Source of the DNA: a virus
Direction: 5' to 3' (one strand)
Length of the DNA: 37,857 bases
Virus record (IMG/VR): IMGVR_UViG_3300021467_000016
Location: 1 to 37,857 of that record
In this document: positions 6,030 to 37,857 of the stretch, one piece after another
Layout: each line of letters begins with the position of its first letter
How positions within the stretch are numbered: the first letter of the stretch is position 1
The notes under the pieces: generated by a model
What the model was told of the DNA's origin: nothing
What the model saw: the letters and a program-made list of their open reading frames with translations, nothing else
Database searches by the model: none
Program-made: the position numbers and the translations under genes

Positions 6030-7481
6030 ATGCAAAAATTTTCAACATGGTTTGTCAAACAGTTGTACACATGCCTTATGTTCTGGGTTAGTCCAAGCGG
6101 GAGTGCTGGAGGTAGTGCGTCGGCGGCTGCTGACGACAACAAAAAATTGACTATGGAGGCCGTTAAGGAGATTATAAAAAAAGCGGTTGAGGATGCTACT
6201 GCAAATGAAATCGCAGAGCTTAAAGAGCAGATTAATACGGTTAATCGCAAGGCTGTATTTCCCTATGCAGAAAAAGGCTTCGGTGATGGTGAGGTTGCCG
6301 ATTTGAATCAGGAGTCTGTGCTTGACACAACTTATTTTTCTAAAAATTATAATGGATTGAAAACCGACCGTTTTTCAAAGTTCAAAAGTCTGTCTGCACC
6401 CTGGCTGCCTGAAGGAATGGCACTTGGCCATGAATTGAAAAACAGTGGAGGCCCCTGGAAAAGACTGTCCCCAGAAATGGAAACATTTGCAAAAGCTATC
6501 AAGTGCCGTGGCGATATGGACAAGATGAAATCGCTTGGTATTGACTTGCCGGAACATAACGAAAAAGTAAAGGCAAAAATCAAGCAGGCCGGGATGAGCG
6601 AGGGGGTACTTGCCGATGGTGGCGTTTATGTACCAATTGAATTTTGGCAGGGTACAATTGAGTTCGCCACCCAGCAATCGCCTATCGTAAGTCAAGTGTG
6701 GCGTCTCCAGATGAACAGCAATCTGATGTATCTGCCGCGTCTCGTACAGGCGGCAGGGAGTTATTTCGGAGGTATACAGTTTTACACTCCGGATGAGGGC
6801 GGGCTTAAAGAGGAAACAAAACCTCAATTCGAGCGGCTGCAACTCGAAGCTGCGAAGCTGGTTGCTGTTGTCTATCTTACCGATGAGCTTATCGCAGATT
6901 CCAGTATTAATATTGTCAACTATGTTACCGGTCTATTCGTGCGTGGTTTTCAATACGAGCTGGAGCGTCGGATTATCGCTGGGACAGGTGCCGCGGGTAC
7001 TCCGTGCCTTGGTATTATTAACGATAGTACGATTAACATCGTGGCAAGGCAGACTGCCGGACTGATAGGTTATCAGGATATAATCAATCTTGATAATGCG
7101 ATTGATGAAAATTTCAGTAATCTCACATGGATAACCCGTAAAAGGTCGCAGAATACATTGATGGGTTTACGGGATGCGAACAATCGTCCCATATTTATGG
7201 CTGACTACGGTGTGTTTACCGGTGAACCATTACACCCGCCGACAATGATTACGTACCCGGTATATCGTACCAGGAACGTACCGGCAATGGGTACTCAGGG
7301 CGATCTTATTCTCGGTGACCTGTCGTGGTATTTGCTCGGTATCAGGCAGGACTTGAGAATTGACCAGAGCGAACATGTGAGATTTCTGTACGATGAACAG
7401 ACAATACGTTTTGTGATGAGGTTTGACGGGCTCCCAGCCATCAGTATTGCTTTTGCGATACTTGGTGATGTTGAGAGTTAA
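6030..7481 (+). CDS. Major capsid protein, HK97 fold
   Basis: This 483-residue protein has the HK97 capsid architecture: an N-terminal delta-like region with coiled coil (about 43-75), then the shell domain from about residue 195 (LADGGVYVP, SPIVSQVW, PDEGGLKEETKP, AAKLVAVVYLTDEL, GTGAAGTPCLGI) to the C-terminal strand LPAISIAFAILGD. The upstream protease would remove the delta region. The start at 6030 has AAAAAGGAG. The first 20 residues are unusually hydrophobic (FVKQLYTCLMFWV) followed by a Gly/Ser/Ala linker; this may act in assembly and be lost on maturation. It is the likeliest abundant target for the glycosyltransferase cassette that follows (inference). Confidence 0.93.
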   Translation: MQKFSTWFVKQLYTCLMFWVSPSGSAGGSASAAADDNKKLTMEAVKEIIKKAVEDATANEIAELKEQINTVNRKAVFPYAEKGFGDGEVADLNQESVLDTTYFSKNYNGLKTDRFSKFKSLSAPWLPEGMALGHELKNSGGPWKRLSPEMETFAKAIKCRGDMDKMKSLGIDLPEHNEKVKAKIKQAGMSEGVLADGGVYVPIEFWQGTIEFATQQSPIVSQVWRLQMNSNLMYLPRLVQAAGSYFGGIQFYTPDEGGLKEETKPQFERLQLEAAKLVAVVYLTDELIADSSINIVNYVTGLFVRGFQYELERRIIAGTGAAGTPCLGIINDSTINIVARQTAGLIGYQDIINLDNAIDENFSNLTWITRKRSQNTLMGLRDANNRPIFMADYGVFTGEPLHPPTMITYPVYRTRNVPAMGTQGDLILGDLSWYLLGIRQDLRIDQSEHVRFLYDEQTIRFVMRFDGLPAISIAFAILGDVES

Positions 7482-7507: not shown

Positions 7508-7532
7508 GGAACCGGGCAAAATGTCCGGTTCC
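7508..7532 (+). other. Hairpin between capsid gene and glycan cassette
   Basis: GGAACCGG (7508-7515) pairs perfectly with CCGGTTCC (7525-7532) across a 9-base loop. It is followed by TAATTAAAAAAAAA rather than a U-tract, so it is not a classical rho-independent terminator in either direction. It sits 26 bases after the capsid stop and 23 bases before the first cassette gene. It could stabilise the 3' end of the capsid message, act as a processing site or weak attenuator, or mark the cassette boundary. Role unproven. Confidence 0.45.
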
Positions 7533-7555
7533 TAATTAAAAAAAAAGAGGCGGGA

Positions 7556-8632
7556 ATGGAACGGCTTGTTAAATGTGAGGTTTTAGACGCGATATGGAAG
7601 CGTCGTACACCCGGAGGAATAGTTCATCTGTATCTGTCCAAGGCGAGACGATTGGAAGGTCAAGATAAAGTCAGGATAATAGATCCTGTTGCCGATGTAA
7701 TTGAAAAAACAGTTAAGAAATATAAGACTAAGGTTATTACTCCTGACTGTGCCAATTGTTATTTGTCAACAAAGACATTTACGGGTAAAAAAAAATATAA
7801 AATTGCATGGGTACAGGATTATTCCAAGCTGGGCGGCGCTGAACTGAGCAACATGTATTTGGTTGATATCGGTGAAAGGCTGGGTTATGATATAGTTGGT
7901 ATAACACCGAATAATACAAACACTACCATTCTTGAATCTGCTGATTTAATAGTGATAAATAATATTTTCGAATTTACCCCTGAAAGAATGGGGGCAATAT
8001 TAAGATGTATCTACGAAAAAAGAATACCATATGTAAAATACGACCATGACCACCGTGAAATGAGGCGCAAACAATTTGCAAGACAACTGTTCACGATGTC
8101 AAGATTAAATATATTTATATCTCCTATGCATTTAGACAAAATGGTTAGCGTAGTTGGAGAACAAATAAGAAATCATTCGTTATGTTTACCATTGGCAATA
8201 GACACAAAATTATTTAAAATAAATAAAAATTATAAGCGTATAAAAAACAGTGTATTGATTCCTACGTATAAAAAATGTGGTGCAAATGTCAATAAATACA
8301 TCGAAAAAAATGCCGACAAAAGTTATACCTTCCTTGGTAATTGTACATTCGAAAATAACTATAAAGTAAAGGCTGAGATTGTTGAGAAGGTAGAGCTTGG
8401 TAAGATGGTTGAATTATATAACACCCACGAATACATGTTACACGTACCAATGTCATTCTGGGCGGGGGAGCGTGTTTATTTTGAGGCAATGCTTTGTGGT
8501 TGTAAATGTGTGACAAACGAGAATGTAGGTCATGTAAGTTGGAATTTTAATAAACGGAATCTAAGAGGCGTATTAGACAAAGCACCATATCGTTTCTGGG
8601 ATAAAATATCAGAAGTTTTAAAGGGGGTATGA
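7556..8632 (+). CDS. GT4-like glycosyltransferase with N-terminal accessory domain
   Basis: A 358-residue GT-B fold enzyme. The first Rossmann half starts near residue 82 (KIAWVQDYSKLGGAELSN, with the GGAE loop at 93-96). The second half carries the nucleotide-sugar site AGERVYFEAMLCGCKCVT (E305, E310), typical of GT4-like retaining enzymes. Residues 1-75 are a separate small region (EVLDAIWKRRTPGG, LSKARRLE) that resembles short phage proteins encoded just after capsid genes; this resemblance is from memory and tentative. There is no membrane segment, so it should act in the cytoplasm. ATG 7556 has AGAGGCGGG upstream. First gene of the cassette, directly behind the major capsid gene. Donor and acceptor cannot be read from the sequence. 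Confidence 0.8.
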   Translation: MERLVKCEVLDAIWKRRTPGGIVHLYLSKARRLEGQDKVRIIDPVADVIEKTVKKYKTKVITPDCANCYLSTKTFTGKKKYKIAWVQDYSKLGGAELSNMYLVDIGERLGYDIVGITPNNTNTTILESADLIVINNIFEFTPERMGAILRCIYEKRIPYVKYDHDHREMRRKQFARQLFTMSRLNIFISPMHLDKMVSVVGEQIRNHSLCLPLAIDTKLFKINKNYKRIKNSVLIPTYKKCGANVNKYIEKNADKSYTFLGNCTFENNYKVKAEIVEKVELGKMVELYNTHEYMLHVPMSFWAGERVYFEAMLCGCKCVTNENVGHVSWNFNKRNLRGVLDKAPYRFWDKISEVLKGV

Positions 8633-8790
8633 TGGCGTACGATGAAAAATTGTGCGATGAGCGTCATTTGAGAATTGACACAAAACTTGAAGAACAAGGC
8701 AAAAAACTTGACCAAATAATAATATTATTGATAACTACGTTAATATCAATAATTGTTACATTGATAAATCTGAATGTTGTTAATCAATAG
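8632..8790 (+). CDS. Small single-pass membrane protein (XhlA/holin-like topology)
   Basis: A 52-residue ORF (53 if the ATG at 8629 is used). The N-terminal half is charged and helical (DEKLCDERHLRIDTKLEEQG), and residues about 29-48 form a hydrophobic segment rich in Ile and Leu (IIILLITTLISIIVTLI). The layout of short coiled coil then membrane anchor resembles XhlA-type phage hemolysin or holin accessory proteins, but no sequence identity can be claimed. The start overlaps the end of the preceding glycosyltransferase (ATGA at 8629-8632), with AAGGGGG as ribosome site. It could instead tether cassette enzymes to the membrane. Confidence 0.6.
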   Translation: MAYDEKLCDERHLRIDTKLEEQGKKLDQIIILLITTLISIIVTLINLNVVNQ

Positions 8791-8801
8791 TGAAGGCGTG
8801 A

Positions 8802-9569
8802 ATGACGGTAAAAATAATGAAATGCGTTCCTATAACTCCGGAGATGAAAAAATACTACGGAGAGGAAATTAACTTGGCCGAACACAAGGCAAATCGGCTA
8901 TCCAAGGCTAACAAGATACGGATCCTTGGTGAATGTAGTTCTATTAACGAGAACAAAACATCGAAATATGTAGAAAAGCCGCGCAGGCGCAGAATAAATA
9001 ATAAGGCAATTTCTTTGTCGCCTGGGATGCATATTCCAACGGTTATACCATATGCTCCTGAAAAAAAAATAGGATACGCATATAATAACATGATGGAAGT
9101 GATTGACGATTGGGTATTATTTGTGGATCATGATGTGTGGCTTGCCACAAATCCTTTGTGGCATGAAATTAGTGTTAATGCAATAAAAACACTTGGTCAT
9201 GAAGCCGGATGGATAACATGTTATACCAATCGTATCGGATGTAAATTTCAACGGGCACCGAATATTGATACCAAAAATAATGATATTCTTTATCATCGAC
9301 AATATGCACTTAATCTTTACAAAAAGAATAAGGGGAAAATTAAAAATCTCACCAAAGCTCCAGGTGGGAGATTTTCAGGAATGTTTATACTTACCCATAA
9401 GCAAGCATGGCTTGACGCCGGAGGCTTTGCGGAGAACATGGGTTTTTTTGGTGTAGATTGTAATTATTTTACAAAAATAAAACGGGCCGGATATGGTGTT
9501 TATCTGATGCAAGATTTATACGTATATCACGGTTATTTTAGAGAAGTGTTAAAACCATATTTTACGTAG
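8802..9569 (+). CDS. GT-A (GT2-like) glycosyltransferase
   Basis: A 255-residue GT-A fold enzyme. The metal and nucleotide-sugar site is VLFVDHDVWL with D109-H110-D111 as the DxD motif. The C-terminal acceptor half has GRFSGMFILTHKQAWLDAGGF followed by MGFFGVDCNYFTKIKRAGY, a pattern typical of family-2-like enzymes. The first 75 residues are basic and not recognised (EKPRRRRINNK near 58-68). No membrane segment. GTs of this kind transfer one sugar from UDP/GDP/CMP donors; the specific sugar is unknown. It begins 11 bases after the small membrane protein stop, with GAAGGCG upstream of the ATG. Confidence 0.75.
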   Translation: MTVKIMKCVPITPEMKKYYGEEINLAEHKANRLSKANKIRILGECSSINENKTSKYVEKPRRRRINNKAISLSPGMHIPTVIPYAPEKKIGYAYNNMMEVIDDWVLFVDHDVWLATNPLWHEISVNAIKTLGHEAGWITCYTNRIGCKFQRAPNIDTKNNDILYHRQYALNLYKKNKGKIKNLTKAPGGRFSGMFILTHKQAWLDAGGFAENMGFFGVDCNYFTKIKRAGYGVYLMQDLYVYHGYFREVLKPYFT

Positions 9570-9577
9570 GAGGAGTT

Positions 9578-9946
9578 ATGGCGCTTGGAGGTATTAAGCC
9601 TGTTGATGTCACCTGTAAAGAAGATATAAAAATCTTACTTGTGGCACATGGGGTTATATGCGGTAACAAAATGCTTGATTTACAAGAGGCTAAAGTAATT
9701 ATCCCGAAGAATACCAAACTGACGGTAGTTGACTTTAATAAAGTAAATGCAAATATCGTCACTGTTTCATGTGAGGTAGGCGGGCATGATGTAATATTCG
9801 AATTGCCCAGGGAATACTTAGCCGGCGATCTTAAAAGGTTTGATAAGGCCTTTAAAGAATTTCAAGTGAAATTCGCAAAAAAGTGTGCCGAAATGGATAG
9901 AAAGGTGCGCGAAAGAAAACGGGAAAAAAATCGGAAGGTGATTTAA
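9578..9946 (+). CDS. Hypothetical protein in glycan cassette, basic C-terminus
   Basis: Not recognised. The 122-residue protein has a predicted beta-rich N-terminal half (residues about 12-80, with DIKILLVAHGVI and ANIVTVSCEVG) and a highly charged, probably helical tail ending in RKVRERKREKNRKVI. It has one of the strongest ribosome sites in the cassette (TAGGAGGAG before ATG 9578), suggesting more product than its enzyme neighbours. It ends directly at the TTG start of the next gene. A structural or carrier protein is conceivable, including an acceptor for glycosylation, but nothing in the sequence shows this. Confidence 0.65.
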   Translation: MALGGIKPVDVTCKEDIKILLVAHGVICGNKMLDLQEAKVIIPKNTKLTVVDFNKVNANIVTVSCEVGGHDVIFELPREYLAGDLKRFDKAFKEFQVKFAKKCAEMDRKVRERKREKNRKVI

Positions 9947-10864
9947 TTGACTAGTACGATAGTATATTTCAAGCATGGCCTTGGTAATCTGATAATGTTA
10001 ACTCCGGTTATCAAGGCGCTTTCCACGATGGACAAATCTGGAAAAGTTGATATATGCCTAAGCTCTGAGTGGAAGGACCCTCGTCGTCCTGCGTTTGATG
10101 AATTTTTTGAATTGTGGGACGTAGTAGAGGACGTGGTAAATTATCCAAAGGAAAAGTTTACAAAAGAATATACAACTTGGTTTTATACAGGCCATTCGGA
10201 GCACTCTGAGGCGTTTGACTACTTCCGAAAAAAAAATCCAATGTTGTCAGAGTGCCCGGATTGGAAAAGTCGCTTGAAGCATGAATCTTTCTGGTATATG
10301 GATGTATTAGATTCATATGGTTACAACGGCCCTATGTATCACCAGGTAGTGCCTGTTAAACCGATAGAATTTAATCGAAAGCCAAATAAAATTTATATTG
10401 GTATTTGTAATGGCACATACAGTAATAGAATGAAAAACTCTAAACAATGGCACTATTTCCAGGAGTTAGTTGACGTTATAAAAATGAAATATAATAATGC
10501 TGTTATAGTTAAAATCGGTTATGGTGACGAATTGTCCCGGGTAAAAGCAGATATAGATTACGTTAATAAATTATCATTTTGTGAATCTGCCGGAGTTATA
10601 TCAGCGCTTGACTTGTTTATAACTACCGATACCGCTAATATGCATGTTGCGGATGCGCTATTCGTGAAAACCATTGCCCTGTTTGGTGCTACGTTCGTTA
10701 GCAAGAACGGCCCAATAAACAAAACAACAAGGATCGTTACGGCTGGATTAAATTGCCAACCGTGTCAAAGAACACCAAAATTTTATAACTGTGAACATTA
10801 TAATTGTATGACTAAATTGACTGTCGGTGATGTGATGCATGAAGTTGATAGGTTCCTAAAGTGA
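9947..10864 (+). CDS. GT9-like (heptosyltransferase-family) glycosyltransferase
   Basis: A 305-residue GT-B enzyme resembling family 9 ADP-heptose:LPS heptosyltransferases. Evidence is the N-terminal HGLGNLIMLTPVIKAL (9-24), the C-terminal donor site TTDTANMHVADALFVKT then IALFGAT, and the family-typical cysteine cluster NCQPCQ and CEHYNCMTKLTV. Family 9 enzymes add heptose or related sugars; whether this one does is unknown. The start is TTG 9947, immediately after the preceding TAA, with GGAAGGTGA upstream. The gene overlaps the next by four bases (GTGA). No membrane segment is present. Confidence 0.85.
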   Translation: MTSTIVYFKHGLGNLIMLTPVIKALSTMDKSGKVDICLSSEWKDPRRPAFDEFFELWDVVEDVVNYPKEKFTKEYTTWFYTGHSEHSEAFDYFRKKNPMLSECPDWKSRLKHESFWYMDVLDSYGYNGPMYHQVVPVKPIEFNRKPNKIYIGICNGTYSNRMKNSKQWHYFQELVDVIKMKYNNAVIVKIGYGDELSRVKADIDYVNKLSFCESAGVISALDLFITTDTANMHVADALFVKTIALFGATFVSKNGPINKTTRIVTAGLNCQPCQRTPKFYNCEHYNCMTKLTVGDVMHEVDRFLK

Positions 10865-11613
10865 AAATATTAAATTTTACAGAATTTTGTTCAGAAGTAA
10901 AGAAAGCATTTCGTAAGATGGAACCGTGGTCACATATCAGATTCGGTGACGGTGAAGGGATAGTAATGGGTTATCCTGAATATACATCAGAGGGAAAGTG
11001 CAAAAAGAGATGGCATAAATGGCTCGGACATTCTAACTTGGACATAGGTAACTTTGCACTTGAAATCAGGGCCGCGGCAGAGATGGCCGATATAATTGGT
11101 ACACCATGTGATAGACACCAAAAAATAAATCAGGATTGGAGAAATGTTTTAAAATATATGAAACAGTACCATTTGTTAAATGAAGAATCGGTCACGTGCT
11201 GTATGGACTGGACTGTAAAAATGCATTTGAAAAATTGTTATCACGACATATTAGACAATAGGGAGGATGTTACATATATAAGTTGCCGTGACGTTAGGGA
11301 AATATTGAAAAATACATTCAACATTAAAAAAGTTACTGCGATACATCTCCCTCCACAGCACTATCCATGCAAAGGGGATGTGTTACGTAATGAACCACAC
11401 TATCCAGATATTTACAATGAGATAATGGATTATCTATCGGATGACCTGTCAGGTAAAATATTTTTGATAGGTGCAGGCGGCCTTGGAAAAATATATTGCA
11501 ATTGGGTAAAACAACACAATGGCGTTGCACTTGACATCGGTTCACTATTTGATGGATGGGCTGGTTTAGTAACCAGGTCGTACTTAAAAGGCATAAAAAA
11601 AATTAAATTATGA
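10861..11613 (+). CDS. GT-D fold glycosyltransferase, first of tandem pair
   Basis: A 250-residue protein of the GT-D (DUF1792-like) class. The single metal-binding DxE motif of this class is visible as HIRFGDGEG, with D30-G31-E32. The C-terminal nucleotide-binding region reads IFLIGAGGLGKIYCNWV then ALDIGSLFDGWAG, shared with the next gene. GT-D enzymes are a recently recognised fold that extends glycans on serine-rich streptococcal adhesins, so a protein acceptor has precedent. The start is GTG 10861 within a GTGA overlap; the end overlaps the next gene by ATGA. It is clearly a paralogue of the downstream gene. Confidence 0.78.
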   Translation: MKILNFTEFCSEVKKAFRKMEPWSHIRFGDGEGIVMGYPEYTSEGKCKKRWHKWLGHSNLDIGNFALEIRAAAEMADIIGTPCDRHQKINQDWRNVLKYMKQYHLLNEESVTCCMDWTVKMHLKNCYHDILDNREDVTYISCRDVREILKNTFNIKKVTAIHLPPQHYPCKGDVLRNEPHYPDIYNEIMDYLSDDLSGKIFLIGAGGLGKIYCNWVKQHNGVALDIGSLFDGWAGLVTRSYLKGIKKIKL

Positions 11614-12374
11614 AATTATTAAACCATAAACAGATAACTGAATTATTGTGTAAAGCAAGAGATAATAAATATCCATACTCACTTAATCGTTTGGGTGATG
11701 GTGAATTCATGATATTAAAATATCCTACCTATGCGGAAAAAAAACAATGCAAAGAAAGAATTGACAGATGGTTTGATGTTGACAAATTGGATGATTTACA
11801 AATAAATGCAATAAGAAATAACATATTAGTGGCATATAAAAATACGAATATTTTAGGGGTTCCTGATAATATAGAAATTAAAAAATATCCTAAGTGGAAA
11901 AATTTTGTATCAATATGCAATAAATTGGGGCTGTTGAACAAAAATCAAAATCTATTCTATTTCTATGATATAAAACATTTGAATTACAAAAAAATATTAA
12001 ATGGTCAAAAGGTTATTTATTGCATTACATGTAGGAATATAGGAGACAAATTAAAATCGGCATTCAACGTAGGAGGTGTAAAATCGTTTTTAATAGCTCC
12101 GGAAAAATATGCTTTTTTAAAATCATTGAGATCACAATATAGAAAATGGAAAGGCAAAAAGCACTATCCGGATCTGTATAATGAAATATTAAAATGGTTA
12201 TCTGACATAGATGTCGCAGGCAAAATATTTCTCATAGGCGCTGGTGGTCTTGGGAAAATATACTGTAATCATGTCAAGGACAGAGGCGGAATCGGAATAG
12301 ATATAGGTTCATTGTTTGATGCCTGGGCAGGAATATATACAAGGCCATATTTGAAAGATGTGAGTAAATTATGA
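11610..12374 (+). CDS. GT-D fold glycosyltransferase, second of tandem pair
   Basis: A 254-residue paralogue of the preceding gene. The DxE motif falls at the identical position (D30-G31-E32 in NRLGDGEFM), and the C-terminal block IFLIGAGGLGKIYCN followed by DIGSLFDAWAG is almost the same, while the middle has diverged widely. That suggests an old duplication with a change of donor or acceptor. The DNA looks more AT-rich than the neighbouring genes by eye. It is coupled to both neighbours through ATGA overlaps. Cytoplasmic, no membrane segment. Confidence 0.78.
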   Translation: MKLLNHKQITELLCKARDNKYPYSLNRLGDGEFMILKYPTYAEKKQCKERIDRWFDVDKLDDLQINAIRNNILVAYKNTNILGVPDNIEIKKYPKWKNFVSICNKLGLLNKNQNLFYFYDIKHLNYKKILNGQKVIYCITCRNIGDKLKSAFNVGGVKSFLIAPEKYAFLKSLRSQYRKWKGKKHYPDLYNEILKWLSDIDVAGKIFLIGAGGLGKIYCNHVKDRGGIGIDIGSLFDAWAGIYTRPYLKDVSKL

Positions 12375-13210
12375 ATGAGTGTAATAATATGAAAAAATGC
12401 TGTCATTGTGGAACCTATAAGCCGCTATCTGATTTTTATAAATCGGCGAAAACCAAAGATAAAAGATGGCATTGGTGCAAAAATTGCGAACGGTTAGCAA
12501 GAAATCAGAGTAAAGAGATGAAATACTGTTTGTCTTTTTCAGGCGGTAAAGATTCAACCGCATTGTTGATTTTACTTCTTGAAAAAAAGATGCCATTAGA
12601 TAAAATTATCTATTTTGACTGTGAAGAATTTGAGTTTCCAGAAATACATGAACACATTGAGAAAGTAAAATCTGTTTTAGGAGTTGAAATAGAGAAGTGC
12701 TATGCTGTAAAACCATTTATGCAATATATATTAGAAATTGGATGGGCTTCGCCACGCTTGCGCTGGTGTACAAATGAGAAAATAAATTCTATTCGTCGTG
12801 CTCTTCGCTTTTATCGCCCATATACTCAATATATTGGATATGCTGCGGATGAAAAAATAAGAATAAATAGGGCACGAAATAAAAATAATGCAAGACATCG
12901 TGATAAGTTTTTAACTTATTCTTTCCCATTAGTAGATTGGTGTATAACTGAAAAAAAAGCACTTGAAATCTGCTACGCATATGGGTTTGATTTTGGAGGA
13001 TTGTATAAACATTGGAGCAGGGTTTCATGTTGGTGTTGCCCATTGCAAAGTAAAAAGGATTTGACGAAATTGCGCAATATAAGGCCGGAACTATATAAAA
13101 AACTTGTAGAAATGGATAGTTATGCTCCAATTAATTATAAGTTTGGGTGGTGGAGAAGAGTGCCAATCTTATATAAAAAACATGGTCAGGTAAATTATGA
13201 AGTACAATAA
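12371..13210 (+). CDS. PAPS reductase/ATP-pyrophosphatase family protein with N-terminal zinc finger
   Basis: A 279-residue protein with a PP-loop, SFSGGKDS (55-62), of the N-type ATP pyrophosphatase/PAPS reductase family (CysH, CysD, DndC relatives). Further family features are RWCT at 131-134 and a cysteine cluster SCWCCPLQ (C220, C222, C223). Residues 10-39 add a zinc finger (CCHCGTYK and WCKNC) like those on HNH-type proteins. Relatives activate sulfate or reduce PAPS by attacking ATP. With a sulfotransferase-like gene in the same cassette, a sulfate-activation (CysD-like) role is attractive but unproven; thiolation of another substrate is equally possible. ATGA overlap with the preceding gene. 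Confidence 0.8.
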   Translation: MNECNNMKKCCHCGTYKPLSDFYKSAKTKDKRWHWCKNCERLARNQSKEMKYCLSFSGGKDSTALLILLLEKKMPLDKIIYFDCEEFEFPEIHEHIEKVKSVLGVEIEKCYAVKPFMQYILEIGWASPRLRWCTNEKINSIRRALRFYRPYTQYIGYAADEKIRINRARNKNNARHRDKFLTYSFPLVDWCITEKKALEICYAYGFDFGGLYKHWSRVSCWCCPLQSKKDLTKLRNIRPELYKKLVEMDSYAPINYKFGWWRRVPILYKKHGQVNYEVQ

Positions 13211-13922
13211 AATAAACATATTTTTACCGACATATCACCGTGTAAGTAATGGGAAGCTCCCGCGTTTTCTGACATCATGTATTGTCAATGTGTCAAGGAT
13301 GGATAATGTATGCATAACATTTTTGTTAAATAAGAATGATTACGAGACGATAGATTATTTAAATAATGTGCGCGTGCCATTAGAAAGCGAAATGTTGTTT
13401 ACCAATATGTCAAAGCCGCACCTTGGGAAATTTTACAATTATATCTATAACAATACAAGATTTAAGGATGCCGGAACTTTGGTGTCTATGGTGGGCGATG
13501 ATATGGAATGGAGAACAGCAGGATATGACAAAAAAATACTTAATGCGATTAACCGTGTTAATGGATATGGCTTGGTATACTGTAATGACGATTTTGTACA
13601 AGGTGACAAGCTCTGTGTTAATCTGTTTACAACAAGAAAATTCGTTGAGTTAACTGGTAAGCCGTTTATGTGTGAAATGTTCGCAGCATATTATATTGAT
13701 ACGGTCTGGATGGAGGTCGGGGAAAAAACAAATACATTAATATATTTGGACGATGTTATATTGAAACATCATCATTATACGGCAAATCCCAAAAGGGCTG
13801 ACAAAACAAGTATTCGTCTAAAAAAAGAAATGGTTGGTTTTAAAAAAGGCCACTCATTAGTCAATAAATATGTAAACACTGTTATTAAAAATATTAATTC
13901 GAAAGGAGTGTTACATGCGTAA
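13197..13922 (+). CDS. GT-A (GT2-like) glycosyltransferase
   Basis: A 241-residue GT-A enzyme. The N-terminus INIFLPTYHRVSNGKLPRFL is a typical family-2 opening strand and donor loop, and VSMVGDDMEW supplies the DxD-type site (D101, D102). The second half (FTTRKFVELTGKPF, then IYLDDVILKHHHY) fits the acceptor half of this fold. It overlaps the preceding gene by 14 bases and the next by 8, so the three are translationally coupled. Donor and acceptor unknown; no membrane segment. Confidence 0.75.
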   Translation: MKYNKINIFLPTYHRVSNGKLPRFLTSCIVNVSRMDNVCITFLLNKNDYETIDYLNNVRVPLESEMLFTNMSKPHLGKFYNYIYNNTRFKDAGTLVSMVGDDMEWRTAGYDKKILNAINRVNGYGLVYCNDDFVQGDKLCVNLFTTRKFVELTGKPFMCEMFAAYYIDTVWMEVGEKTNTLIYLDDVILKHHHYTANPKRADKTSIRLKKEMVGFKKGHSLVNKYVNTVIKNINSKGVLHA

Positions 13923-14598
13923 CATAATTAGTTTTGCCTTATACGGCAACGATAAAATGTATACCGTTGGTGCGGTCAAAAATGCTGAATTGCAGAAAAA
14001 GATATACCCAGGCTGGAAGTGTAAATTTTTTGCAAATCAAGGTGTAGACAAAACTGTAATTAATGACCTGATAAAATTAGGTGCCGAGGTAAAAATAATA
14101 AAGGCACCGGTAGATTTTAAGTCAAAATTTGTTCGTATGGAGATTGCCGTTGAGCAAGTTGACCGGTTTATAATCCGTGATTGCGACTCACGATTAAATA
14201 GGAAAGAGGCAGATGCGGTCGCGGACTGGATTAAATCAGGTAAACCAGTACACATAATGCGTGACCATAAAAAACACACATCCCCGATGATGGGAGGTAT
14301 GTGGGGTGCTGTTAAAGGATTTATACCGGATGAGGTTTTCCTAAAAGTTTATCGCGAGTGGATAACCGCACTTCGCGCAGAGAAATTTAAGGGTAAGGAA
14401 TATTGTAAAAAAGACGGTAAAAGCGACCAAGGGTTTCTCGCACATAAAATATACCCTCTAGTAAAAGATAGGTGTTTAACTCACACGAGCCACAAAAAAT
14501 TTTCAGATGATGATATTCCATTTCCTAGTTCATTGCGTTATGGTAGATTCATCGGTCAACAGGTGAGGGCCAACGGAACATATGTAAAAGTAAGATAA
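13915..14598 (+). CDS. GT-A-like glycosyltransferase with DCD motif
   Basis: A 227-residue protein with RFIIRDCDSRLNRKE (D89-C90-D91 as DxD) followed by PVHIMRDHKKHTSPMMGGMWG, a conserved block of a glycosyltransferase-like family found in polysaccharide clusters and large viruses. I recognise the pattern but not a named subgroup. It opens with a short Rossmann-like strand, IISFALYG. AAAGGAG lies eight bases before ATG 13915, inside the end of the preceding gene. It is followed by 11 non-coding bases and a methyltransferase. Confidence 0.7.
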   Translation: MRNIISFALYGNDKMYTVGAVKNAELQKKIYPGWKCKFFANQGVDKTVINDLIKLGAEVKIIKAPVDFKSKFVRMEIAVEQVDRFIIRDCDSRLNRKEADAVADWIKSGKPVHIMRDHKKHTSPMMGGMWGAVKGFIPDEVFLKVYREWITALRAEKFKGKEYCKKDGKSDQGFLAHKIYPLVKDRCLTHTSHKKFSDDDIPFPSSLRYGRFIGQQVRANGTYVKVR

Positions 14599-14609
14599 GG
14601 GGAAACGGT

Positions 14610-15167
14610 ATGATATATAACTTTGGTCAAACTACATCAAGCCACGTGCCGGTATTGTTAGAGTATATTGACAAATACGCACCAAGGTCAGTTCTTGAAT
14701 TTGGTGGCGGGGTATTTTCGACATCTATATTTTCCAGGCACATTGACAATATAACTACAATAGAGACACACCATGAATGGGCGGAATATTTACGTGGCAG
14801 GTTTAATCATAAGGTGATATTTTTGGAAAAAGATATGGTTATGCACCATGTTGAACATATCATAAGCAGATTTGACCTGGTATTTATTGATACAGTAAAC
14901 AAATTGCGTAGGCCGTTAATTTTATCCGCTACGAAATTTACTGATACAATAATTTGCCATGATGCGCAATTGCCATTTTTAAGAAAGATCAGGGTTGTGG
15001 GTTTCAAACGTGTTGATTTCAAAAATCCTCCGTTTAAATATAAAAATGGTTTACGTCCATGGACTTCATTATTTACGAGGGATATGAAAGTGTATAATTA
15101 TTTTGTAAATTACGAGGAATCAGAATTGTATAAAAAGCACAGGTTTCCATATGGCGTTGAAAAATAA
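14610..15167 (+). CDS. SAM-dependent methyltransferase
   Basis: A 185-residue class I methyltransferase. Motif I is SVLEFGGGVFST (27-38), the SAM ribose-binding acidic residue is in ITTIETHHEW (E52 region), and motif IV-like FDLVFIDT follows near 94-101. The C-terminal part is specific to this protein and may bind the acceptor. In a glycan cassette the likely product is an O-methylated sugar, but protein or small-molecule targets are not excluded. GGGGAAACGGT precedes ATG 14610; the end overlaps the sulfotransferase gene by 17 bases. Confidence 0.75.
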   Translation: MIYNFGQTTSSHVPVLLEYIDKYAPRSVLEFGGGVFSTSIFSRHIDNITTIETHHEWAEYLRGRFNHKVIFLEKDMVMHHVEHIISRFDLVFIDTVNKLRRPLILSATKFTDTIICHDAQLPFLRKIRVVGFKRVDFKNPPFKYKNGLRPWTSLFTRDMKVYNYFVNYEESELYKKHRFPYGVEK

Positions 15168-15687
15168 AGTTTTTTGCATTGGGATGTTTAAAACCGGAAC
15201 GAAGAGTTTCGGACAAGCAATGCGTGTGCTTGGTTATAAGGTGTTGGATCGCCCATGGTTTATACTCAAAGATAACTGGTACAACAATCCTAAAAAATGG
15301 CCGATATATTTTGACAAGATAAAAGAGCGGGCAAATATGTACGAGGCATTCAGTGATGCGCCCTGGATGTTTCTATTTAAACAGCTTGACGTTTGGTATC
15401 CTAATAGTAAATTCATATTGACGTTGCGAAAGGACGCTCTATCCTTGGCAAAAAGCGACCGCGGCCAGTGGCGTGGGAAGCCTAATACCCCGTCGCTTGA
15501 AAGGTTTATGGATAGGTATAATAAACATAATAAAATGGTGTCGGATTATTTTAAAAATCGTGATAACTTTATGACTATGTGTTTCGAACGTGGTGATGGG
15601 TGGGTAAAGCTGTGTAAATTTTTGGATATAAACAATATACCTCTAATACCATTTCCACATCTTAACAAAGGGAGATATAAAAGATGA
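15151..15687 (+). CDS. Sulfotransferase-like protein
   Basis: A 178-residue protein of the P-loop sulfotransferase superfamily. The 5'-phosphosulfate loop is FCIGMFKTGTKSFGQAM (K14-S19). The 3'-phosphate binding segment is SKFILTLRKDALSLAKS, with R93 and S98/S102 as candidates. DAPWMFLFKQLDVWYPN between them is typical of the family. Such enzymes move sulfate from PAPS to hydroxyl or amino groups of glycans or other acceptors. At 178 residues it is near the short end for the family but has both PAPS-binding elements. It overlaps both neighbours (17 and 4 bases). A phage-encoded one inside a head module is unusual. Confidence 0.8.
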   Translation: MALKNKVFCIGMFKTGTKSFGQAMRVLGYKVLDRPWFILKDNWYNNPKKWPIYFDKIKERANMYEAFSDAPWMFLFKQLDVWYPNSKFILTLRKDALSLAKSDRGQWRGKPNTPSLERFMDRYNKHNKMVSDYFKNRDNFMTMCFERGDGWVKLCKFLDINNIPLIPFPHLNKGRYKR

Positions 15688-16313
15688 TTAAGCGGATAGG
15701 TAGTAAATATGGTGGGTGGTATATCGATCCAAACATCGTACCACAAAACAGTACGACAGATACAGAAAGGTCAAGACCAAGCTTCTGTTATATTATATCG
15801 GCTGGTTTGGGCAATGATATATCGTTTGACCTGGCTATGATTAAGTTGACAAATTGCTTTGTAGTTGGTATTGATCCAACAACATTGGCCGCAAAGACAG
15901 TTAGTAAAATAAAGGAACCAAAATTTGTTTATATAAAAAGGGGACTATTCCCAAATGACAATGGAATGACGATGTCTAATTTAATGACTAATGGTAATTC
16001 TATATATTCATGTGGGAGAATGACAACAAAATTCCATACAATAAGTATTCCAACGTTGATTAAGATGTATAAAAACATTTCCGTATTGAAGATGAATATT
16101 GAAGGGGCGGAATACCCTGTATTGATGCACTTGCCAGAGATAGATATAAAACAGGTATGTATACGTTTCCATCACCGCAAGAAAACCGTACCCTATAACC
16201 TGAAAAATACTGAGAAATGTATATTAAAATTAGTGCGAATGGGATATGAAGTGATGGAGACGAATGCCGGGAATAAAAACGTTGACTACGAGGTATTATT
16301 GTGCAAAAAGTAA
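15684..16313 (+). CDS. FkbM-like methyltransferase
   Basis: A 209-residue protein with features of the FkbM methyltransferase family: an N-terminal KYGGWYID, a SAM-binding region IISAGLGNDISFDLAM with a following acidic strand FVVGIDPT, and the family signature VLKMNIEGAEYPVL near residues 133-146. FkbM enzymes O-methylate sugars and polyketides, which fits a glycan-decorating cassette. AAAGGGAGA precedes ATG 15684, and the gene overlaps its neighbours by 4 and 13 bases. Confidence 0.8.
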   Translation: MIKRIGSKYGGWYIDPNIVPQNSTTDTERSRPSFCYIISAGLGNDISFDLAMIKLTNCFVVGIDPTTLAAKTVSKIKEPKFVYIKRGLFPNDNGMTMSNLMTNGNSIYSCGRMTTKFHTISIPTLIKMYKNISVLKMNIEGAEYPVLMHLPEIDIKQVCIRFHHRKKTVPYNLKNTEKCILKLVRMGYEVMETNAGNKNVDYEVLLCKK

Positions 16314-17089
16314 ACGTGATTATTGGACTGAATGAAAACCCTAATTATTTTAGTATATTGCCGGTTACTGTAGCCGCATACCGCAAATTTTTCCCAGAGG
16401 CGAGGGTTATAATAGGTTTGATTTCCGATAATGATTCATTCAGAATGAAACTCCTGAATATAGCTAAACCTGATTTTATTTATCGGTTCGATCCGATAAA
16501 GGGAATAGACACTGGGAACCAAGCGAAAATAATACGATATTTTTTAGCGTGTAACTATGGTAACAGTATATGTGTAATGAATGATGTTGATATAATACCT
16601 CTATGTCGTAAATATTTTGAAAAGCGATTAAGCCGCAGGGTGCGGGAAAACCTGCTCACAGTCGGTTCAGAGTGGTATGGCAACGGCAAGTTTCCCACTC
16701 CGTGGTGTACCGGTGAGGGGTATTTGTTTAGCCAGTTTGTGAATCCATTATATTTTGAATGGGAACAATTTATAACCTGGACTGGTAATGTGTCAAAAAT
16801 TGACGGCAAGGAAAGTATATCGTTACCATTTGGCAAGTTTTCTGATGAATCATTGATACGTAGCATGTTAAACAGACGTCCAGTCCCGGTAATAAATTTG
16901 AAGAAATATCCAAAAAATAAAATACCGATTTATGCGGTGTCGCGGCACCATGCTGTAAATGTTAAGAGATTGCACGCTGGAAAATATATAGAAGGTCATC
17001 ATCTTTTCCCGTTCAATAAATACGGACATCTATTAATGGAGATAGTAAAATATATTGGATGTGATTTTGATCCGGAGTGGTACAAATGA
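16301..17089 (+). CDS. GT-A-like glycosyltransferase with DVD motif
   Basis: A 262-residue protein beginning with NVIIGLNENPNYFSILPVTV and carrying SICVMNDVDIIPL (D95-V96-D97), a DxD donor/metal site. The TGNQAKIIRYFLAC helix just before it is usual for GT-A enzymes that hold UDP-sugars. The C-terminal region, with KRLHAGKYIEGHH, contains histidines that may complete a metal site. The exact family is not recognised. The start is GTG 16301, overlapping the preceding gene by 13 bases; the end forms an ATGA with the next. Confidence 0.68.
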   Translation: MQKVNVIIGLNENPNYFSILPVTVAAYRKFFPEARVIIGLISDNDSFRMKLLNIAKPDFIYRFDPIKGIDTGNQAKIIRYFLACNYGNSICVMNDVDIIPLCRKYFEKRLSRRVRENLLTVGSEWYGNGKFPTPWCTGEGYLFSQFVNPLYFEWEQFITWTGNVSKIDGKESISLPFGKFSDESLIRSMLNRRPVPVINLKKYPKNKIPIYAVSRHHAVNVKRLHAGKYIEGHHLFPFNKYGHLLMEIVKYIGCDFDPEWYK

Positions 17090-17340
17090 GTATGCGAGAT
17101 GCGGCTGCTGTAAGAACAGTGTGCGAGGTATTACGGGAGATAAATGATTTACACCAGGAAAATACTGAGCATGATAAAATTGTAAGGGTTAAGTTGTGTG
17201 AAGCCGAAGATATGGCTAAAAGAATGTCAAAGAAATTGGTATCATACAACAAAAATGTTTACCGGGGGTGGTGGGAAAAGAATCCTAATTATGCGCGTGC
17301 CGTTAAGCAGAGGCTTGACAAAAAGTATTGTGTGGGGTAA
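17086..17340 (+). CDS. Small conserved-looking phage protein, function unknown
   Basis: An 84-residue helical, charged protein (RDAAAVRTVCEVLREINDLH then EDMAKRMSKKLVSYNKNVY and a Trp-rich GWWEKNP). Not recognised as a named family. The start at 17086 is chosen because it forms an ATGA with the preceding stop; a GTG at 17077 would only add three residues. No catalytic motif or membrane segment. It separates the transferases from the membrane protein that follows. Confidence 0.6.
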   Translation: MSMRDAAAVRTVCEVLREINDLHQENTEHDKIVRVKLCEAEDMAKRMSKKLVSYNKNVYRGWWEKNPNYARAVKQRLDKKYCVG

Positions 17341-17342
17341 AT

Positions 17343-17606
17343 ATGAACAAATTTAAATTTATTTTAGAACAAATAATGGATGTTTTTGATGAACTGATTT
17401 TTATTTTTATTATCTATCCTTTGGGATTATTTTTAACAGTGCTCGGTGCTATTTGGTTTTATAATTATAATCCCAAAACATGTGTTATGGCAGGTTTTAT
17501 GGTTATGTGTTTTGTAGTTGTCGGTATTGTCATTTCCATTGTTTTAATTTTAATTGAAGGCATTAAAACTATTGTTTACAATTACAAAAAACGTTTTGGA
17601 AAATAG
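17343..17606 (+). CDS. Two-pass small membrane protein, possible holin
   Basis: An 87-residue protein with two hydrophobic segments (about 15-40, LIFIFIIYPLGLFLTVLG; and about 48-73, VMAGFMVMCFVVVGIVIS) and a basic C-terminus (YNYKKRFGK). This size and topology fit a class II holin, but no endolysin gene lies nearby, so a membrane anchor for the glycan enzymes is as likely. ATG 17343 is preferred to the GTG at 17328: it follows the upstream TAA by two bases and GTGGGG lies upstream. Confidence 0.6.
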   Translation: MNKFKFILEQIMDVFDELIFIFIIYPLGLFLTVLGAIWFYNYNPKTCVMAGFMVMCFVVVGIVISIVLILIEGIKTIVYNYKKRFGK

Positions 17607-17615
17607 TAAATACAT

Positions 17616-18482
17616 ATGAAAATATTAATATTACAATCAGCCGGTGGACATACTGAAAATAAAGAATATAGAGAATGCCTATGTATGACTCGTGCGCTTA
17701 ATCGTATTGATGGAGTCGAAGCAGTGACATGGGGGGTCGGGCATAAGAATTATAATATCCCATTTCGTAAAATGGAATCCTGGAGTGATGTAATATTTAT
17801 TCTTGAAAATTATTCTCGTAAACCTTGGCTACCGGTTGATGCATTGTCGGCAAGTAAGAAATTGAAAATATTTTGGAGCATTGATTCGCATTGTGCATTA
17901 AATAGACATCAGGCGCTTGCAGTAAACGCGAAGGTGAATATCTTGCTTAATTCAACTTCAAGCTATCTGAAATATTTTAAACCGATAAAGTCAATCTGGT
18001 TTCCTAACTGTTATCCGGATGATTTAATAAAACCTTTACCAATTGCCAAAAGTATAGATGTTGGTTTTTGTGGTAGTAAACTTAATCGCGCGAAGTGGTT
18101 GCAGACACTTTCAAGGAACTTTAACTTCAAGCAAGATATTTTTGTGCTTGGCAATAAAATGGTTTCGGCAATTAATTCTTATAAAATACATTGGAACCGT
18201 AACTATAAAAACGACATCAATTACCGGACCTTTGAAACGATGGGATGTAGAACTTGCCTTGTGACAAACAAAACCGATAAGGTTAATGAATTGTTTGAGG
18301 ACTATAAACATCTCGTTTATTATAATACAATAACTGATTGTATTTACAAAATAAGAAGTCTGTTGAGAAATGAAAAATTATTGAACAATATTGCTCTTAA
18401 TGGATATAATGAAGTAAAAAGTAAACACACTTATTATCATCGCGCATTAAGGCTGGTAAATATAATCAAGGAGTATATATAA
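17616..18482 (+). CDS. CgeB-like GT-B glycosyltransferase
   Basis: A 288-residue protein resembling the CgeB/YkvP glycosyltransferase group. Evidence is the opening MKILILQSAGGH, a strand KIFWSIDSH in the first half, DVGFCGSKLNRAKWLQTL (148-165) and the C-terminal donor site NYRTFETMGCRTCLVTNKT with NELFEDYKHLVYY. CgeB was first seen in Bacillus spore-coat maturation, so protein-shell glycosylation has precedent for the group. It is the last cassette gene; its TAA shares one base with the ATG of the head-tail connector, tying the cassette to the structural operon. Confidence 0.78.
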   Translation: MKILILQSAGGHTENKEYRECLCMTRALNRIDGVEAVTWGVGHKNYNIPFRKMESWSDVIFILENYSRKPWLPVDALSASKKLKIFWSIDSHCALNRHQALAVNAKVNILLNSTSSYLKYFKPIKSIWFPNCYPDDLIKPLPIAKSIDVGFCGSKLNRAKWLQTLSRNFNFKQDIFVLGNKMVSAINSYKIHWNRNYKNDINYRTFETMGCRTCLVTNKTDKVNELFEDYKHLVYYNTITDCIYKIRSLLRNEKLLNNIALNGYNEVKSKHTYYHRALRLVNIIKEYI

Positions 18483-20039: not shown

Positions 20040-20065
20040 TTAAATCTAACCATAGGAGGTTGTTT

Positions 20066-20863
20066 ATGTCTAATTCTGCACCAAGTACCGATAATTATCT
20101 TGTTGGGAAAGGAAAACTCTATTTTGACCGGTTTGATGATGATGGGAATCTGACCGGTGAGCTTGACCTTGGGAATGATCCCAGCTTCGCCCTTACCCCT
20201 GAAAACGAGCTATTGGAACATTTTAGCTCGATGGAAGGTGTGAAGAAAAAGGACAAAACAGCGGTAATATCAACTGAGTTAAATGGCAAGTTCACTTTAG
20301 ACGAAATTAACATTGATAATCTTGCACTTGCCTTATATTCAGATGATGTATCATATCTTACCCAGGATGACGGTAACCAAATTAATGCGCCGATAACCGC
20401 GCACTCTGGTAAATGGATAAAACTACCGCACCGTAAACTTGCCACAGGCACAGTCAGCGTTACTAATGTCGCAGGTACTACTCACTACGTAGAAAATACC
20501 GATTATCGGATAGACTACACAATCGGTCGTATATTTATCGTCGTGGGAGGTAGTATCGCAGATGGTCAGACACTGCACGTTGATTATACGTATCAAGCCC
20601 ACTCTTATCCTGTTGTATATCCTGCTACTAATGCAGAGTGTGAAGGATTGCTCAGGTTCGTTGGTAATGCTACGTTTGGGTTTGATTTCGAAGTGGTAAT
20701 GTGGCGTGTAAAGTTATCACTGAATGGGGACATCAATTTTATTTCCGACGAGTGGGCGCAGTTTGAAATCAATTTTGAAGTTCTCGATGATTCTGCAAAT
20801 CACCCTACATCACCATATGGTATGGTAATTGATACCGAGGGTGATGTAGCACCTGAAAGTTAG
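20066..20863 (+). CDS. Major tail tube protein
   Basis: A 265-residue protein with the usual tube features: an opening VGKGKLYFDRFDDDG, a beta-rich body and a following domain with KLATGTVSVTN and VDYTYQAHSYPVVY. ATG 20066 has AGGAGGT six bases upstream, the strongest ribosome site in the tail module, as expected for an abundant protein; a TTG at 20060 falls against that site and is rejected. Position between terminator and chaperone genes supports the call. Confidence 0.85.
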   Translation: MSNSAPSTDNYLVGKGKLYFDRFDDDGNLTGELDLGNDPSFALTPENELLEHFSSMEGVKKKDKTAVISTELNGKFTLDEINIDNLALALYSDDVSYLTQDDGNQINAPITAHSGKWIKLPHRKLATGTVSVTNVAGTTHYVENTDYRIDYTIGRIFIVVGGSIADGQTLHVDYTYQAHSYPVVYPATNAECEGLLRFVGNATFGFDFEVVMWRVKLSLNGDINFISDEWAQFEINFEVLDDSANHPTSPYGMVIDTEGDVAPES

Positions 20864-36445: not shown

Positions 36446-37360
36446 CTATTTCCATTCCTCCAAATAATATTCTGCTTCGATACCGTACGGCGTCGAAACG
36501 GTGACGATTCTTTTTTGTTTGTCAACTTTTATGAGCACCGGGACTTCTCCCCAACACTCGTTGTGTTTAATGACATTAATGTGGTCGTCCTCCAGCTCAG
36601 ACCAAGGGAAACCATCGAGGTTGTGCAAGACGATTTCCCAGTCGATCGGTTCATCGCCCCACCAAATTTCCTCGTTGAGGGGCGTCCCCTCATCATCAGC
36701 GCCGCATGCCGTGAGGATACCCCACGACGACGCGTAACCATCATACCAATTGGGACGATTCCCGACATAATCAGCAAGACGAATTGTTTGTCGATTATCG
36801 GTTATTGATATGGTTGGTATTAATTGTCGGATATAATTTGCCATTTTTCTCCGTGTTGTATTATCAGCACAGGCGGCATGGGCGGCGCAGGAAGCGGCAT
36901 AGGCGGCATGGGTAACATCGACGGCGGCGGCGCGGGCGGCATCGGCAGCGGCATCGGCAGCGGCGGCAGCAGCATCGGCAGCGGCATCGGCATCGGCAGC
37001 GGCATCGGCATCGGCATCGGCAGCGGCAGCGGCAGCGGTAGCGGCATCGGCGGCGGCGGCAGCAGCGCGTGCGTTGTCTACCGATGGATTTTCCAGCCAT
37101 TTTTCAGCGGCTGCGATTGCCTCTTCCGGACATTTGTCCGCCGGGTATTTATTTTTATAATTTTCAATGCATAATTTCGCCGCGTAAGTGGCGATTTTTA
37201 CGCATGTTTTTTTGTTCGGGTTATTGCGCTTGTACAGCCACAGCATCCAATCAGGCCGTTCACATTCATCCCATGCCTGTTGGAGGGTCCGGTCTCCAAC
37301 CCACCTGAGCGCCTCTGCACATGCATCGCTTTTTTTGAGATATTTTTTTAATTCCACCAT
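36446..37360 (-). CDS. Ala-rich protein resembling Imm5-like putative immunity proteins
   Basis: A 304-residue protein. Residues about 1-95 (SDACAEALRWVGDRTLQQAW, ERPDWMLWL, EEAIAAAEKWLENPS) resemble the N-terminus of the putative-immunity-protein (Imm5-like) family, a recognition from memory. Residues about 95-165 are a low-complexity Ala/Asp helix made from GGCATC/GGCAGC-type repeats. The last 130 residues form a separate acidic domain (NWYDGYASSWGILTACGADD) not seen in the partial paralogue. GGAGGAGG precedes the ATG at 37360. It could be a defence or anti-defence factor or a structural helix; function unknown. Confidence 0.7.
   Translation of the reverse strand: MVELKKYLKKSDACAEALRWVGDRTLQQAWDECERPDWMLWLYKRNNPNKKTCVKIATYAAKLCIENYKNKYPADKCPEEAIAAAEKWLENPSVDNARAAAAAADAATAAAAAADADADAAADADAAADAAAAAADAAADAARAAAVDVTHAAYAASCAAHAACADNTTRRKMANYIRQLIPTISITDNRQTIRLADYVGNRPNWYDGYASSWGILTACGADDEGTPLNEEIWWGDEPIDWEIVLHNLDGFPWSELEDDHINVIKHNECWGEVPVLIKVDKQKRIVTVSTPYGIEAEYYLEEWK
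36803..37228. repeat. Duplicated segment, copy 1 (Ala-rich gene)
   Basis: This segment pairs with 37421-37857. Outer flanks (36803-36876 and 37062-37228) are almost identical to those of copy 2, while the GC-rich core (about 36877-37061) is built from different short repeats, mainly GGCATC, GGCAGC and GGCGGC. Read on the minus strand it encodes the Ala-rich helix. Confidence 0.85.
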
Positions 37361-37375
37361 TTTTAACCTCCTCCG

Positions 37376-37857
37376 TTAATTGTTTTTTTGCTCCCTCGTT
37401 ACCAATATCGTCTGTTCGGGTATTGATATGGTTGGTATTAATTGTCGGATGTAATTTGCTATTTTTGCCTGTGTTGTATTATAAGCACAGGCGGCATAGT
37501 AGGCGGAGCGGGCGGCGTAGGCGGCGGCGATGGCAGCGTCGGCGGCGGCGACATCAGCGGCATAGGCGTCGGCGGCAGCGGTGGCGGCGTAGGCGGCGGC
37601 GATGGCAGCGTCGGCGGCAACACGGGCGGCACGGGTAACATCGACGGAAGTGGCGGCAGCGGTCTCCGCGGCATAAGCGGCGGCATCGGCAGCGCGTGCG
37701 TTGTCTTCCGATGGATTTTCCAGCCATTTCTCAGCGGCCGCGATTGCCTCTTCCGGGCGTTTGTCCGCCGGATATTTATTTTTATAATTTTCAATGCATA
37801 ATTTCGCCGCGTAAATGGCGATTTTTACGCATGTTTTTTTGTTCGGGTTGTTTCGCT
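37376..37857 (-). CDS. Partial Ala-rich paralogue, cut by window edge
   Basis: An open frame on the minus strand enters from beyond 37857 and stops at 37376. It has no start within the window (first complete codon ends at 37855). It begins RNNPNKKTCVKIAIYAAKLC, matching residues about 45-64 of the neighbour, then KWLENPSEDNARAADAAA, and ends NYIRQLIPTISIPEQTI before a different, shorter tail. Its Ala-rich core differs in sequence and length from the neighbour, holding a 12-residue unit (AADAAIAAAYAA) twice. It lies 15 bases upstream of the neighbour ATG, in the same operon. Confidence 0.8.
   Translation of the reverse strand, partial: RNNPNKKTCVKIAIYAAKLCIENYKNKYPADKRPEEAIAAAEKWLENPSEDNARAADAAAYAAETAAATSVDVTRAARVAADAAIAAAYAATAAADAYAADVAAADAAIAAAYAARSAYYAACAYNTTQAKIANYIRQLIPTISIPEQTILVTREQKNN
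37421..37857. repeat. Duplicated segment, copy 2 (partial Ala-rich gene)
   Basis: Second copy, truncated by the window edge. The flanks match copy 1 closely, from TATTGATATGG at 37421 and from CAGCGCGTGCG at 37690 to the end. The core includes a 36-base exact direct repeat at 37511-37546 and 37583-37618, which encodes AADAAIAAAYAA on the minus strand. Confidence 0.85.

Follow-up and report, generated by a model that had tools for sequence, protein, structure and literature searches.

A PAPS-type sulfotransferase gene in the capsid-tail operon of an environmental phage and its probable role in virion glycan sulfation

Introduction

Why would a tailed phage carry a sulfotransferase gene among sugar transferases, between its capsid and tail genes? 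The question is raised by an IMG/VR virus record of 37,857 bases (the window, that is, the whole stretch of DNA analyzed). Phage sulfotransferases have been reported before. PMC10580990 notes Sulfotransfer_3 proteins of OM43-type phages and Synechococcus phage S-SRM01 as auxiliary metabolic genes and describes their role as unclear, and PMC8290583 reports phage sulfotransferases from glacier viruses. PHROGs also holds a family, phrog_3347, named "Galactose-3-O-sulfotransferase".

Gene order and the glycan island

The plus strand of the window encodes, in order, terminase (592), portal (1991), and head proteins (4281 and 6030), followed by an island of about 11 kb (7556-18482) rich in glycosyltransferase and methyltransferase genes. 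Downstream of the island, head-tail joining, major tail, tape-measure, and tail-tip genes continue on the same strand up to 32353. RecT and an SbcC-like protein are encoded in a minus-strand block, and no tRNA was found in the 37,857 bases. The closest terminase and portal relatives among cultured phages are only about 25% identical and come from mixed hosts. At the end of the record (36446-37857, minus strand), an Ala/Asp-rich low-complexity protein is accompanied by a partial second copy; the repeats at 36798-37230 and 37416-37857 are 82-83% identical. The features of the island and its borders are as follows (L numbers are our handles for the records compared).

6030..7481, plus strand: major head (capsid) protein, which bounds the island upstream (phrog_10, E 3e-44)
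7556..8632, plus strand: probable GT-B-like glycosyltransferase, a weak assignment (PF13524, E 0.02, below cut-off); kept in L005, L006, L007, and L009
8802..9569, plus strand: glycosyltransferase (phrog_26101, E 2e-10)
9947..10864, plus strand: GT9 (heptosyltransferase-like) glycosyltransferase (PF01075, E 2e-15)
10861..11613, plus strand: GT-D-fold glycosyltransferase, paralogue of the next gene (PF22882, E 8.5e-12)
11610..12374, plus strand: GT-D-fold glycosyltransferase, paralogue of the preceding gene (PF22882, E 5.6e-9)
12371..13210, plus strand: PAPS-reductase-domain (PP-loop) protein with an N-terminal CxxC segment (PF01507, E 1e-11; phrog_424, E 3e-36)
13197..13922, plus strand: glycosyltransferase (phrog_14945, E 8.5e-15)
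13915..14598, plus strand: uncharacterized island protein (BLAST: 37% to L007/L011, 42% to the unrelated L027)
14610..15167, plus strand: putative protein resembling class I SAM methyltransferases, whose gene runs into the start of the sulfotransferase (motif reading; no significant match in Pfam or PDB searches)
15151..15687, plus strand: Sulfotransfer_4 (PF17784) PAPS-type sulfotransferase, 178 aa (Pfam, PDB sequence match, AF2/Foldseek, invariant residues)
15684..16313, plus strand: FkbM-type methyltransferase, sharing 4 bp with the end of the sulfotransferase gene (PF05050, E 1.5e-5)
16301..17089, plus strand: probable glycosyltransferase (sequence reading; no Pfam match), kept in L003 and L007/L011 at 37-49% identity
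17616..18482, plus strand: glycosyltransferase, Glyco_trans_1_2 (PF13524, E 6e-23)
20060..20863, plus strand: major tail protein, part of the tail module on the downstream side of the island (phrog_807, E 3e-53)

These neighbors, together with the terminase, portal, capsid, and tail genes of the record, bear out the first-pass annotation, which had placed the sulfotransferase among sugar transferases within a structural operon. Glycosyltransferase genes lie inside the structural module, the feature that we took to mark a virion-glycosylation system. The tandem GT-D-fold paralogues (10861-12374) are both kept in L005 and L007. The CxxC segment of the 12371-13210 protein resembles endonuclease VII families, and its gene is optional: synteny shows it missing between the same neighbors in L005 and L007, which rules it out as an obligatory partner.

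The sulfotransferase and its predicted fold

The sulfotransferase ORF starts with the ATG at 15151, and its stop codon ends at 15687. It overlaps the upstream gene by 17 bp as well as the downstream gene, and this tight packing indicates an operon-like run. PF17784 matches the ORF with an E-value of 1e-25 and 91.3 bits (cut-off 22.8), and the schistosome sulfotransferase 4mua is matched by sequence (E 5e-11). The fold prediction that had been proposed as a check on this gene yields an AlphaFold2 model with a pLDDT of 88 and a pTM of 0.84 (15-sequence alignment) that matches solved PAPS sulfotransferases. All of the best 19 Foldseek matches in the PDB are sulfotransferases (E 5e-9 to 6e-7), PAP-bound Cpz8 (9kf2) among them. 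The closest solved structure by E-value is SgdX2 (8y9p), an "activating" bacterial sulfotransferase; among viral proteins, a sulfotransferase of a giant virus matches best. A profile built from the phage family gives full-length matches to SgdX2, the schistosome enzymes, and Cpz8 (E 1e-20 to 1e-22). As far as homology goes, the ORF is almost certainly a sulfotransferase, and its initial description as a phage-encoded, PAPS-type enzyme is upheld by family, motif, and predicted fold.

Active-site residues

Residue conservation was evaluated over 23 aligned sequences, 20 viral and three cellular. Gly11, Thr17, Ser19, Asp69, Arg93, Ser102, Phe134, and Phe157 are invariant; position 14 is Lys or Arg in all 23 sequences, and Gly16 is present in 22. 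The FKTGTKS segment (residues 13-19), previously proposed as a PAPS element, corresponds to the 5′-phosphosulfate-binding loop, with Lys/Arg14, Thr17, and Ser19 conserved throughout. Arg93, put forward as a second element, agrees with this pattern and reads as the invariant 3′-phosphate-binding Arg. The serine named as its partner was misidentified: Ser98 is Ser in just 5 of 23 sequences and is ruled out as the 3′-phosphate serine, whereas the invariant Ser102 lines up with the serine at R+8 in homologues of known structure. Arg93 and Ser102 thus fit the family's 3′-phosphate site, an Arg behind the strand and a Ser on the next helix. Sulfotransferases are defined by a basic PSB residue and a PB serine (PMC11625862), and this rule, taken with the 23-sequence conservation, identifies Lys14 and Ser102 as the defining residues of the phage protein.

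Asp69 aligns with Asp91 of SmSULT (4mua chain position 93; the numbering offset of 2 is derived from Pro16, which is chain position 18). The Asp91 side chain is positioned to hydrogen bond with the accepting hydroxyl (PMC4618941), making Asp69 the putative acceptor-side Asp. The phage protein matches PF17784 profile positions 1-106 and 153-212, leaving 107-152 unmatched. Many drug-pocket residues of SmSULT (Val127 to Thr157) fall in that stretch (PMC12414012), so the acceptor site of the phage protein, judged by alignment, is probably more open. A more open site would suit a larger acceptor.

SmSULT-OR (4mua), SgdX2 (8y9p), and Cpz8 (9kf1, 9kf2) share with the phage protein a common profile, fold, PSB loop, R/S 3′-phosphate site, and acceptor-side Asp. 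The phage protein differs in being only about 20-23% identical to them, in its length of 178 aa, and in lacking the pocket segment; the acceptors of the solved enzymes are small molecules. By PDB title, Cpz8 and SgdX2 are natural-product pathway enzymes. SmSULT acts on oxamniquine (PMC4618941).

Placement in related phages

Relatives of the capsid protein occur in other IMG/VR contigs at 37-73% identity. The sulfotransferases of L003 and L007/L011 are 62-64% identical to that of the window. Behind the capsid gene of L007/L011 comes the same island, in which homologues of 14610 and 16301 flank the sulfotransferase; the L003 sulfotransferase immediately precedes homologues of 16301 and 17616 and the tail module. 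The L002 record, being near-identical, does not count as independent, the sister phages L005 and L006 are represented by fragments that stop short of the sulfotransferase position, and the PF17784 family is missing in the sister phage L009 (capsid 52% identical), so the conserved placement rests on three distinct phages.

L009 does encode an ORF (7513-8151) that reads as sulfotransferase-like (PF13469, E 0.004, below cut-off). A relatives search with this ORF found none, and its single-sequence AF2 model, with a pLDDT of 34, is uninformative; we regard it as a lead to another sulfotransferase. The capsid-tail island of L009 also contains a 796-aa serine-rich repeat protein (10418-12808, SASESTSESAS...), which adjoins glycosyltransferases and the sulfotransferase-like ORF and is a possible O-glycosylated virion acceptor. 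L007, whose island lacks the PAPS-reductase-domain gene, encodes a polysaccharide pyruvyltransferase (14231-15253), another route to negative glycan charge.

The wider viral family

One loose scan returned 25 IMG/VR contigs with PF17784, some of them near-copies. None of 50,697 cultured-phage records was matched in tblastn searches with five queries, the protein of the window and four further sulfotransferases or sulfotransferase-like proteins. The first-pass statement that sulfotransferases are rare in phages consequently fits cultured phages but is too strong for environmental ones, given the 25 contigs found with PF17784 alone, the PHROGs family, and the reports in the two papers cited above. 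Within the family tree, cellular and phage rows are intermixed. Six usable pairs of phage relatives have dN/dS values of 0.13-0.28, which points to purifying selection in these relatives; comparisons with the window's own gene are saturated at synonymous sites, and L035/L036 are near-identical and too close to judge.

The 126 genes flanking the sulfotransferase at 18 of these loci include eight epimerases of the sugar-nucleotide type, five DegT aminotransferases, five pyruvyltransferases, four GT25 and three GT2 genes, and further Sulfotransfer_1/2 genes; apart from GT2, these are the most frequent Pfam families there. The T4-like relatives L012 and L027 have the sulfotransferase in glycan islands that adjoin replication genes, and structural placement is therefore not universal.

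PAPS supply and a domain fusion

APS kinase, an enzyme of PAPS synthesis, is encoded within about 4 kb of the sulfotransferase in 5 of 24 records (23 picked as sulfotransferase relatives, plus L009), which represent three lineages. The kinase gene directly follows the sulfotransferase in L025/L026 as a DUF2061-APS kinase fusion (10608-11318 in L026, with a Sulfotransfer_2 gene two genes upstream), lies one gene away in L045, and is about 3-4 kb distant in L035/L036. A tblastn search with the L026 APS kinase found matches in just 5 of 50,697 phage records; as the two counts differ in method and collection, the link is suggestive and not a tested enrichment. No APS kinase was found in the window itself, which may be incomplete.

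A single ORF of L031 (7369-9450) combines a region resembling Stealth_CR2, of sugar-phosphate transferase type (E 7e-7, short of the profile's cut-off), with a Sulfotransfer_4 domain and a further C-terminal part. The fusion is flanked by baseplate/tail-fiber-like and tail genes, as named by sequence reading, and a second sulfotransferase-like ORF lies at 10122.

Discussion

An intact-looking sulfotransferase among sugar transferases, found in the same place in related environmental phages, suggests that the virions are probably coated with sulfated sugars. Our best single reading, based on sequence and models and given a probability of roughly 0.6, is that the protein is a PAPS-dependent Sulfotransfer_4 enzyme that sulfates a virion glycan. 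That the acceptor is a glycan of some kind we consider likely. In the proposed mechanism, Lys14 of the FKTGTKS loop would hold, together with Arg93 and Ser102, the 5′-phosphosulfate and 3′-phosphate of host-made PAPS, and Asp69 would activate the acceptor hydroxyl for attack on sulfur. The acceptor would most likely be a sugar hydroxyl of a glycan made late in infection by the neighboring glycosyltransferases. Attached to capsid or tail proteins encoded beside the island, this glycan would become an anionic, sulfated decoration of the virion and may affect adsorption or particle stability. Several observations count against virion glycan sulfation: the solved Sulfotransfer_4 enzymes use small molecules and not protein-bound glycans, the gene of L012/L027 is near replication genes rather than structural ones, the conserved placement comes from three distinct phages, and the window, possibly incomplete, has no APS kinase.

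Other roles have to be weighed against this one. The enzyme and its island could act on a polysaccharide of the host surface, such as O-antigen, capsule, or exopolysaccharide, and not on the virion; this might, for instance, prevent superinfection or keep phages from re-adsorbing to debris. The GT9, GT25, WbqC, pyruvyltransferase, and nucleotide-sugar genes of the window and its relatives are indeed typical for cell-surface glycans. We nevertheless judge this unlikely, as the island is co-oriented with the capsid and tail genes that enclose it, its promoter- and terminator-like matches are near shuffled expectation, which suggests late expression with the virion proteins, and the island genes scanned include no flippase, polymerase, or membrane acyltransferase. 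Production of a sulfated, glycosylated hypermodified DNA base seems quite improbable. Glycosyltransferase- and sulfotransferase-based nucleotide modification in phages has been proposed computationally (Iyer et al. 2013, as cited in PMC10829341), but no base-hydroxylating gene was identified, the gene is in the structural and not the replication module, and the several glycosyltransferases seem more than one base requires. Tet_JBP had no match in 24 records, which are possibly partial, but this negative is weak, as the controls gave no match either.

The sulfate might also be transient: placed on a small molecule or a sugar nucleotide as a leaving group or passing modification, it would be lost from the final product, as in natural-product pathways. 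The position of the "activating" SgdX2 as closest solved structure fits such chemistry, but the glycan enzymes encoded nearby and the missing SmSULT pocket segment, with the more open acceptor site it suggests, make it very unlikely. Least probable of all is a passenger, a horizontally acquired auxiliary metabolic gene with no virion role: the patchy distribution of the family and its mixed tree speak for it, yet the gene is kept in place at 62-64% identity across phages, including L007, whose capsid protein is only about 60-64% identical to that of the window, and dN/dS is low in phage relatives.

A viral parallel to the proposed virion glycan sulfation is found in Megavirinae. Moumouvirus australiensis encodes a SAT/APS kinase (ma457) and a sulfotransferase (ma461) within a cluster of glycosyltransferase genes whose presumed task is particle decoration (PMC10117803). 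These are giant viruses of eukaryotes with an unrelated cluster, whose role is likewise predicted only; the tailed phage, by comparison, has its island within the capsid-tail operon, and only its more distant phage relatives carry APS kinase. The auxiliary metabolic sulfotransferases reported for phages are also PAPS-type but belong to another Pfam family where this is stated, and the accessible parts of those reports describe no placement in a capsid-tail island. Capsid glycosylation has been suggested for mycobacteriophages such as Maravista, as for our phage, from phage-encoded glycosyltransferases; Maravista has far fewer (two), and the accessible part of the report mentions no sulfotransferase (PMC11256854). 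Our search of the open literature found no description of a sulfotransferase within the capsid-tail operon of a phage. Sulfotransferases of phages have thus been reported, as have sulfation genes from the glycan clusters of giant viruses; the conserved placement in a phage structural module and the link to PAPS supply seem to be new.

More broadly, and at somewhat less than even odds, tailed phages may decorate their own virions with anionic glycans, sulfated and, in sister phages, also pyruvylated, by means of a capsid-tail-operon sulfotransferase, some lineages helping to supply the donor through an adjacent APS kinase. A sulfotransferase conserved in the capsid-tail region, with relatives beside APS kinase or in a Stealth-like fusion, turns the unclear role of phage sulfotransferases (PMC10580990) into a testable claim, namely that phage particles bear sulfate esters. 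If this is true, enzymes would directly control how environmental phages are charged at the surface, how they adsorb, and how stable they are, and cells and giant viruses would no longer be the only sources of sulfated glycans.
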